The notes under the pieces were generated by a model. That model did not search any database and had not been told where the DNA came from. It worked only from the letters and a program-made list of their open reading frames with translations. DNA of 64,000 nucleotides, taken from the NCBI RefSeq assembly GCF_024330105.1, contig NZ_JANDHW010000006.1, positions 1 through 64,000 of the forward strand, read 5' to 3'. This document shows positions 3,826 to 4,844 of this stretch, one piece after another; the first letter of the stretch is position 1, and each line of letters opens with the position of its first letter. Source of the DNA: Coprobacter tertius. GTDB taxonomy: Bacteria; Bacteroidota; Bacteroidia; Bacteroidales; Coprobacteraceae. The position numbers and the translations under genes were made by a program.

Positions 3826-3915
3826 TTTATCACACTTTAAAATATTCTTAGATTCTAATCAAATTAATCAGATACGGCAGATCGCATCTATTTCTTTATC
3901 ATGTAAACTGGTTGT

Positions 3916-4096: not shown

Positions 4097-4129
4097 ATTG
4101 TGAGGGATGCGATATTTATACTACATTTG
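4097..4129 (+). promoter_or_regulatory. Bacteroidota promoter for the structured RNA
   Basis: ATTG (4097-4100) and TACATTTG (4122-4129), 21 bases apart, match the -33 and -7 boxes. Transcription would start at about 4134-4137, exactly at the first bases of a long helix. The rest of the 462-base gap between 3826 and 4287 holds the glycosidase promoter and AT-rich sequence in which I see nothing else. Confidence 0.65.
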
Positions 4130-4133
4130 TAAT

Positions 4134-4267
4134 GTCTCACTTACTTAAGAAGCATATTAATCGCTGTATGCGAGCAAGAGGTATTATAAGCCTCCGCTGT
4201 GCACACAACGATTGTGTGTTTTAAAAAGTAAGTGAGACGACTTTATTCAGCGGAGGCTTTTTTTATT
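4134..4267 (+). ncRNA. Candidate structured RNA with interlocked helices
   Basis: Seen directly: GTCTCACTTACTT (4134-4146) is the exact complement of 4226-4238 (13 bp), and AAGCCTCCGCTG (4188-4199) is the exact complement of 4248-4259 (12 bp). The 5' arm of the second helix is inside the loop of the first and its 3' arm is outside, so the two helices form an H-type pseudoknot or are alternatives. Smaller hairpins lie in the loops: GCATA/TATGC (4152-4156, 4167-4171) and CACACAA/TTGTGTG (4202-4208, 4212-4218). The loop bases AATCG (4159-4163) can also pair with CGATT (4209-4213). A promoter sits right before it and a T-run right after it. I do not recognise a known family. It could be a free small RNA, or an attenuator in the leader of the sigma gene that starts 21 bases after it. 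Confidence 0.6.
4188..4266 (+). terminator. Intrinsic terminator of the candidate RNA
   Basis: A 12-bp GC-rich stem (4188-4199 with 4248-4259) directly followed by seven T (4258-4264). The loop is unusually long (48 bases) and contains the 3' arm of the first helix, so terminator formation and the first helix may influence one another. Confidence 0.7.
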
Positions 4268-4287: not shown

Positions 4288-4713
4288 ATGAACCTTCTTA
4301 ATATCAATAGCAATCTGGTCGATTTACATAAACCGCTAATGCATTTTGCTTATTTTCTAACTTCAAATAAAGAAGATGCAGAAGATTTATTTCAAGATAC
4401 AATAGTTAAAACAATTGAGAACAAAGAAAAGTTCAGAGAAAACACAAATTTCAAAGCTTGGATTTTCACTATTATGAAAAATATCTTTATAAACGACTAT
4501 CGAAAACATAAAAACAGAATAACAATAGAAATAAACGAAGAAGCAACAGACTTTATTTCAGAAGGTACCTTTGATGAACTATACGATTATAAACTGATGA
4601 ATACCATGATCTCGAAACTAGATAAACAAAGCCGATTACTTTTTGGCATGTATATTTCCCAGTATAAATACGAAGAAATCGCAGAAGAAATGAATATTCC
4701 TATAGGAACGTAA
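4288..4713 (+). CDS. ECF-type RNA polymerase sigma factor, frameshifted at its C-terminus
   Basis: Sigma-70 family ECF factor. Region 2 is recognisable from DAEDLFQDTIVKTIENKEKF and FKAWIFTIMKNIFINDYRK (residues ~30-72), and region 4 from KLDKQSRLLFGMYISQYKYE followed by EIAEEMNIPIGT. The frame stops after 141 residues, exactly where the recognition helix (normally GTVKSR...) should continue. Shifting back one base at 4710 gives GTVKSKIHYIRLDLKKSLNE and then a stop at 4806-4808, for a total of 173 residues, a normal ECF length. So one base was lost (most simply one G of ACGGTAAAG), or a -1 frameshift is needed, or the base call is wrong. As read, the product would lack promoter -35 recognition. 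No anti-sigma factor or SusCD pair is next to it. The target genes are unknown. Confidence 0.85.
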   Translation: MNLLNINSNLVDLHKPLMHFAYFLTSNKEDAEDLFQDTIVKTIENKEKFRENTNFKAWIFTIMKNIFINDYRKHKNRITIEINEEATDFISEGTFDELYDYKLMNTMISKLDKQSRLLFGMYISQYKYEEIAEEMNIPIGT

Positions 4714-4808
4714 AGAGTAAAATTCATTATATACGACTCGATCTAAAAAAATCTTTAAACGAACGTTCGATTCCAAAAGGAAAAAATAACGTCCGAAACC
4801 ACATATAA
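4710..4808 (+). pseudogene. Out-of-frame C-terminal part of the ECF sigma factor
   Basis: In the -1 frame from 4710 the 32 codons encode VKSKIHYIRLDLKKSLNERS and a basic tail ending VRNHI, followed by TAA at 4806. The first residues are the typical start of the sigma region 4.2 recognition helix. The stop lies just before the terminator palindrome, which suggests this was the original gene end. Confidence 0.7.
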
Positions 4809-4844
4809 AAAAAGATGTCCGATATGTAATTACATATCGGACAT
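4807..4844 (-). terminator. Terminator of the perR-rubrerythrin operon
   Basis: Positions 4815-4844 form a perfect 30-base palindrome (ATGTCCGATATGTAA and its complement). On the minus strand it is followed by CTTTTTTTATA, a classic intrinsic terminator 30 bases after the rubrerythrin stop. It may also end plus-strand transcription of the sigma gene. Confidence 0.85.

Follow-up and report, generated by a model that had tools for sequence, protein, structure and literature searches.

The window is a 64,000 nucleotide stretch of the Coprobacter tertius genome (contig NZ_JANDHW010000006.1, positions 1–64,000). An ECF sigma factor gene is encoded on its plus strand at positions 4288–4713 (Pfam Sigma70_r2, 9.9e-16; r4_2, 5.4e-6), and positions 4134–4267 of the same strand display two long perfect helices that cross each other. 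The sigma gene is frameshifted. There is a 1-nt deletion at about position 4710 (between GGAAC and GTAAAG), with one TAA inside, and the frame resumes at positions 4710–4808 with the continuation VKSKIHYIRLDLKK... The main locus in five Coprobacter species has an ECF sigma gene with the Sigma70_r2 and r4 domains; it is broken only in the window genome, and the frame is open in the four congeners. The other PF08281 matches listed for the window genome and for genome G001 have no internal stop. Since the frameshift lies outside a homopolymer run, it is possibly a real mutation, yet the RNA element is intact. Between the sigma gene and a rubrerythrin gene there is a perfect palindrome at positions 4815–4844 (ATGTCCGATATGTAATTACATATCGGACAT) with A-run and T-run flanks, which is likely a bidirectional terminator.

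A −7 promoter box, TACATTTG, is found at positions 4122–4129 of the plus strand. It is of the Bacteroidetes sigma-ABfr type and is an exact match to the Bacteroides promoter consensus TAnnTTTG (PMC7366714). Four nucleotides later the first helix, P1, starts; its 5′ arm at positions 4134–4146 would be the first bases of the predicted RNA and pairs perfectly (13/13) with positions 4226–4238. The second helix, B, is of 12 bp and joins positions 4188–4199 (AAGCCTCCGCTG) with positions 4248–4259 (CAGCGGAGGCTT). It is followed by a U-run at positions 4258–4264, which makes B a terminator-like hairpin. The promoter box and both helices had been described in a reading of the sequence alone, and the helices are exactly where that reading placed them. 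Between positions 3900 and 4400 no other perfect inverted repeat reaches 12 bp.

Two further helices were missed by the sequence-only reading. P2 (positions 4149–4175 with 4196–4222 in the minimum-energy fold, interrupted by small bulges) continues P1 inward, so that P1 and P2 are predicted to form a continuous rod, at whose tip the B 5′ arm lies. There the B arm has a weak local partner in this fold, P4, where GAGGU at positions 4178–4182 pairs with positions 4190–4194; the strength of P4 varies among other copies. P3 is an alternative to P1. Its 5′ arm, AAAGT at positions 4225–4229, overlaps the 3′ arm of P1 (P1′), and its 3′ arm, ACTTT at positions 4240–4244, is within the linker between P1 and B. 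Two small hairpins with complementary tips, AATCG and CGATT, had been pointed out earlier; both tips exist, and the predicted fold pairs them within P2 rather than as a loop-loop contact.

The folding energy of positions 4134–4267 is −51.8 kcal/mol, compared with −27.6 ± 3.4 for shuffled sequences (z = −7.1). A descriptor free of sequence (a −7 box, a helix starting 2–9 nt later, a second helix that crosses the first, and a T-run) matches once in the 64-kb window, at the 4134 element, and not at all in the reversed window; reversed control sequence totalling 2.03 Mb yields one match, i.e. a false-positive rate of about one per 2 Mb. The element is nearly palindromic. Antisense matches to the covariance models described below (e.g. 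at loci L036, L037 and L069) reflect this same symmetry and were excluded. A 30 amino acid open reading frame, MSHLLKKHINRC (MSHLLKKHINRCMRARGIISLRCAHNDCVF), is found inside the RNA at positions 4132–4224. It has no counterpart in the congeners, and a leader-peptide attenuator was rejected as an explanation.

Distribution and gene contexts

About 75 distinct copies of the element were found in Coprobacter, in a second Bacteroidales genus and in transposable Bacteroides phages. Blast searches of related genomes detect it in three congeners, and a phage copy is found in 18 phage records, including hankyphage p00 (BK010646.1). A covariance model built from four sequences finds it in all five Coprobacter genomes examined, with second copies in two, and also matches four genomes of other Bacteroidales families; a model built from 12 sequences added further copies. 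The second genus has five copies in one genome and one in another. Viral contigs were scanned by pattern twice, which picked out 10 and 110 of them; of the larger set, nearly all of the 80 contigs listed score with the model. A phylum-wide search of 395 genomes shows no copies beyond the window genome, and at 30 loci that encode the most similar sigma-like proteins of the order there are none besides those already known. A genome-wide pattern scan gave 74 matches; three of the 40 scored by the model are clearly above background and all three are known loci. As far as these models see, the family does not extend beyond Coprobacter, a second genus, and the phages and prophages of Bacteroidales.

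The promoter box is common to nearly all copies. Of 74 copies, 72 have a TAnnTTT box in the 75 nt ahead of them; the box ends in TTTG in 67, and in nearly all copies it lies 1–7 nt before P1. The T-rich tail after B is present in every aligned copy. In one viral contig (L058, positions 136–310) the 3′ half of the RNA is intact and the 5′ half has been exchanged for unrelated sequence; this copy appears to be recombined or decayed.

The chromosomal copies share one arrangement. Downstream sequence was read for 11 chromosomal copies outside prophages. In every one of these the next gene is on the same strand and is a sigma or sigma-like gene, and the spacing is 21–42 nt where the start codon is clear. 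This would place the RNA in a 5′ leader, i.e. in an attenuator-like position. In two species the rubrerythrin gene is upstream rather than downstream, and the position of the RNA is kept. No such RNA was found beside the other sigma genes read in the window genome and in G001. Outside the main Coprobacter locus the downstream proteins differ. In the second genus and at one Coprobacter second copy they are about 140–165 amino acids long with a region-4-like domain only, and at the other Coprobacter second copy the downstream protein displays no Pfam sigma domain. With no recognisable region 2 in any of these, their role is uncertain. The sigma and sigma-like open reading frames are under purifying selection, with dN/dS values of 0.04–0.22 in Coprobacter (where computable) and 0.32–0.49 in the other genus.

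Genome G279 (Bacteroidaceae, from roe deer) has five units of RNA plus sigma-like gene (L039, L042, L043, L071 and L072). Three of these encode similar proteins, yet their RNA helices differ by compensated changes. The genome has a sixth sigma-like open reading frame, at the end of contig C74.

Dozens of transposable, hankyphage-like Bacteroides phages carry the RNA. In hankyphage p00 it is in an unannotated stretch between a gene 3′ of the reverse transcriptase of the diversity-generating retroelement (DGR) and a small hypothetical gene. Of 62 viral copies, 57 are followed by a gene on the opposite strand. These lack the 5′ leader position, and the phage RNA appears to stand alone, in antisense orientation to the block of genes around it. 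Just upstream, also on the opposite strand, a gene of about 80 codons for a helix-turn-helix (HTH) protein (phrog_17790, weakly Mor-like) is found in 53 of the 62, and beyond it are a thymidylate-synthase-like gene and a Dam-type methylase gene. Since there is no downstream gene to attenuate in the phages, the RNA would also have to act in a free form; this is the main argument that it has a function of its own. The sequence-only reading had offered an attenuator or a free small RNA. Both arrangements occur, an attenuator-like position in the chromosomes and a free-standing one in the phages.

Some phage copies, e.g. L040 and L062, display a C-rich stretch 5–30 nt after the U-run (CCCCCG, or CCCCGAC in L040). 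It could pair with the 3′ arm of B and seems to track the changes of that arm (GTCGGGG/CCCCGAC), and a third state, limited to phages, is possible. In one hankyphage-like phage (L064, positions 4365–4540) an RT-3 RNA (RF03068, 131.9 bits) is found just upstream of the DGR reverse transcriptase, on the strand opposite to the present RNA and about 2 kb away from it.

Covariation and competing folds

An alignment was made of 73 distinct copies, both viral and chromosomal. Compensatory changes are abundant, and the comparison among relatives that had been proposed as a check on the helices therefore bears them out. P1 shows changes on both sides at 13 of 13 pairs and is 97.3% paired. The corresponding figures are 10 of 10 core pairs and about 94% of cells for P2, and 4 of 8 pairs and 89% for B, where, for example, U-A replaces C-G in 12 copies. 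Because P1 and P2 guided the alignment, the values of both are inflated; B played no part in the fitting. For P1, P2 and B together, 94% of cells are paired, compared with 68% in shuffled alignments and 38%–46% with slid partners, and the covariation score is 0.663, compared with 0.196 and 0.05–0.10, respectively. An alignment-free test gives the same picture for P1: of 9 positions, 8.76 pair when an arm is set against its own partner and 4.12 when the partner comes from another copy. P1 is rich in G-U pairs (e.g. 15 U-G at one pair) and occurs in a few recurring types (GTCTCACTTA.., GCCAATCA.., ATCTCACTTAC.. and CTCTTACC..). The P2 sequence is hypervariable. The 5′ arm of B is identical in the four aligned Coprobacter species and is of the GCCCCCGG type in phages.

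P3 joins the start of P1′ to the part of the linker just 5′ of the B 3′ arm and is incompatible with P1. It shows changes on both sides at 6 of 7 pairs and is 76.5% paired, with phage variants such as GTTAATA/TATTAAC, GTTAGTA/TACTAAC and GTTTGTA/TACAAAC. In the chromosomal copies 6 of 2000 shuffles of the linker reach the observed pairing. The covariation score of the alternative state, P3 plus B, is 0.174 versus 0.117 when shuffled. The A/T-rich P3 is the weakest-supported of the helices, and the comparison argues for it moderately.

The P1-P2 rod and the combination of B and P3 are mutually exclusive folds, and there are compensatory changes in both. This agrees with one of the two possibilities raised in the sequence-only reading, that the helices are alternative states rather than one compact pseudoknot. 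The other, an H-type pseudoknot of P1 with B, is disfavoured. The stacked P1 and P2 form a rod of about 30 pairs, and the linker from its foot to the B 3′ arm is of 9 nt in Coprobacter to 13 nt in phages. By helix geometry, for such a linker to span the rod to its tip in a P1 and B pseudoknot would be sterically excluded or barely possible. For a pseudoknot of P2 with B, formed in the absence of P1, 69 of 74 copies have a modelled junction of 0–2 nt, and the median length of loop 1 is about 13 nt; the arms of B were forced open in these models, which favours a short junction. These values are suggestive that the H-type pseudoknot would be P2 with B and not P1 with B.

Energy estimates indicate when each fold might form. 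As long as the B 3′ arm has yet to be made, the nascent RNA of 72 of 74 copies has the rod as its minimum-energy fold. When the 5′ strand is blocked, the P2 and B pseudoknot has an estimated median of −45.8 kcal/mol (with a fixed penalty of 9.6), compared with −41.6 kcal/mol for the best nested fold, and is better in 64 of 74. The preference for the rod early and for the pseudoknot when the 5′ strand is blocked is the basis for placing a gate in the first 13–18 nt. In all 74 copies the rod is thermodynamically better than nested B, and thus B might never form in cis.

A proposed switch and its rivals

We propose a structured RNA with two mutually exclusive states that would act as an attenuator in the chromosomes and as a stand-alone RNA in the phages, and we rate this reading at about even odds (a probability near 0.5). 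In the first state the 5′-terminal strand would pair with P1′, and P1 and P2 would stack as a long rod. The tip of the rod would hold the 5′ arm of B, no hairpin would form at the U-run, and the polymerase would read on. The second state would arise when a ligand, a protein, a ribosome or another RNA keeps the 5′ strand from pairing. P1′ would then fold into P3, and B would pair with the P2 tip to give an H-type pseudoknot or hairpin beside the U-run, followed by termination. The first 13–18 nt of the RNA would in this way choose between readthrough and termination. In the chromosomes the attenuator would control the downstream sigma or sigma-like gene. In the hankyphage-like phages the stand-alone transcript would presumably act in trans, e.g. 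as a competitor for a factor that reads the host copies.

It is possible, at clearly longer odds, that the RNA acts in trans as a free small RNA wherever it occurs. Base-pairing with target mRNAs would start from the 5′ strand, the rod tip or both, B would be a terminator only, and proximity to a sigma gene would be incidental or reflect a target. The stand-alone phage copies suit this explanation, as do the few recurring types of P1 beside a hypervariable P2. So does the unchanged B 5′ arm in four Coprobacter species in which the synonymous sites of the sigma gene are near saturation, and in the window itself the sigma gene is broken and the RNA intact. Against it, the spacing of 21–42 nt to a sigma or sigma-like open reading frame recurs in all 11 chromosomal loci examined, five of them in one genome, and the genome that encodes the RNA shows no other long stretch matching the P1 or B arm. 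A small DNA-binding type of protein adjoins most copies (the region-4-like protein on the 3′ side in chromosomes, the divergent phrog_17790 HTH protein upstream in phages), and the order of promoter, structured RNA, terminator and gene for about 150 amino acids resembles type III toxin-antitoxin loci. This would fit a module in which the neighbouring protein binds the RNA, as an RNA antitoxin, an anti-sigma RNA or an autoregulator, with the phage copy as a decoy. We regard such a module as unlikely, for there are no matches to toxin, nuclease or defence families and no tandem RNA repeats, and the phage HTH and sigma-like proteins may not be homologous. A related reading, that the RNA fold controls or is read by the host sigma-like protein and that the stand-alone phage copy hijacks or decoys this circuit, is equally doubtful.

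The recurrence of the P1 arms as a few sequence types is also what protein sites would look like, and the element might then work as DNA, where a protein would recognise paired operators or a cruciform and the RNA structure would be a side effect. The many G-U pairs in P1, covariation of P2 without conserved sequence, the promoter box just before P1 and the T-run after B on one strand only make this improbable. Bacteroidales have many terminators of the GCCTCC/GGAGGC type, seen here as weak matches, and an ordinary one could by chance stand beside an unrelated inverted repeat. This last idea is refuted by the covariation in 73 aligned copies and by the rarity of false positives of the descriptor, and its probability is negligible. 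The two-state RNA is the reading that we prefer.

Comparison with known systems

The absence of a known family at this locus, as first supposed, was confirmed in Rfam 15, where neither the window element nor the copies at 12 further loci match a family above the gathering cut-off; RT-3, elsewhere in those loci, is the only match. The accessible portions of two hankyphage papers (PMC6199706, PMC12135933) make no mention of such an RNA. Fremin and Bhatt (2021) list 3161 candidate RNAs without names, drawn from human microbiomes and in part located near phage domains (PMC8040213). With this structure and distribution the family appears to be undescribed in the sources available to us, but it may be among those candidates.

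Attenuators and riboswitch platforms, e.g. Phe_leader (RF01859), likewise have exclusive antiterminator and terminator helices before a regulated gene. The present RNA differs in that it has no conserved leader peptide and no large conserved ligand core, and in that the arms of its terminator cross the main stem. Its match to the Phe_leader model is at chance level (16.2 bits, cut-off 55). 6S RNA (RF01693, Bacteroidales-1) is also a long-stem RNA of 130–180 nt in the same genome in which a conformational change is possible; however the element here does not match the 6S model and its fold has no central open bubble. The sole 6S match of the genome is elsewhere (C3, positions 328475–328654, 161.6 bits), and 6S RNA was rejected as its identity.

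Type III toxin-antitoxin systems (ToxIN, CptIN) share the series of promoter, pseudoknot-capable RNA, terminator and small gene. Here, however, every copy read is a single RNA unit with no tandem repeats, and the gene downstream encodes a sigma-region-4-like protein instead of a ToxN-type nuclease. The downstream proteins match sigma-factor models or nothing, and show no matches to toxin, nuclease or defence families. The RT-3 RNA of diversity-generating retroelements (RF03068) occurs together with the present RNA in one phage, but the two are separate RNAs, and the present family also occurs where no reverse transcriptase is near, both in phages and in chromosomes.

Few bacterial RNAs display such clear covariation for two competing folds and have neither a name nor a function. 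Bacteroides lysogens and Coprobacter offer a small system that can be tested genetically, both for the gating of a pseudoknot terminator by the 5′ strand and for the reason why phages keep a free copy. It is a well-supported RNA family, absent from Rfam 15, that precedes sigma or sigma-like genes in relatives of the phage hosts and is carried by one of the most widespread phage groups of the human gut, the hankyphages.
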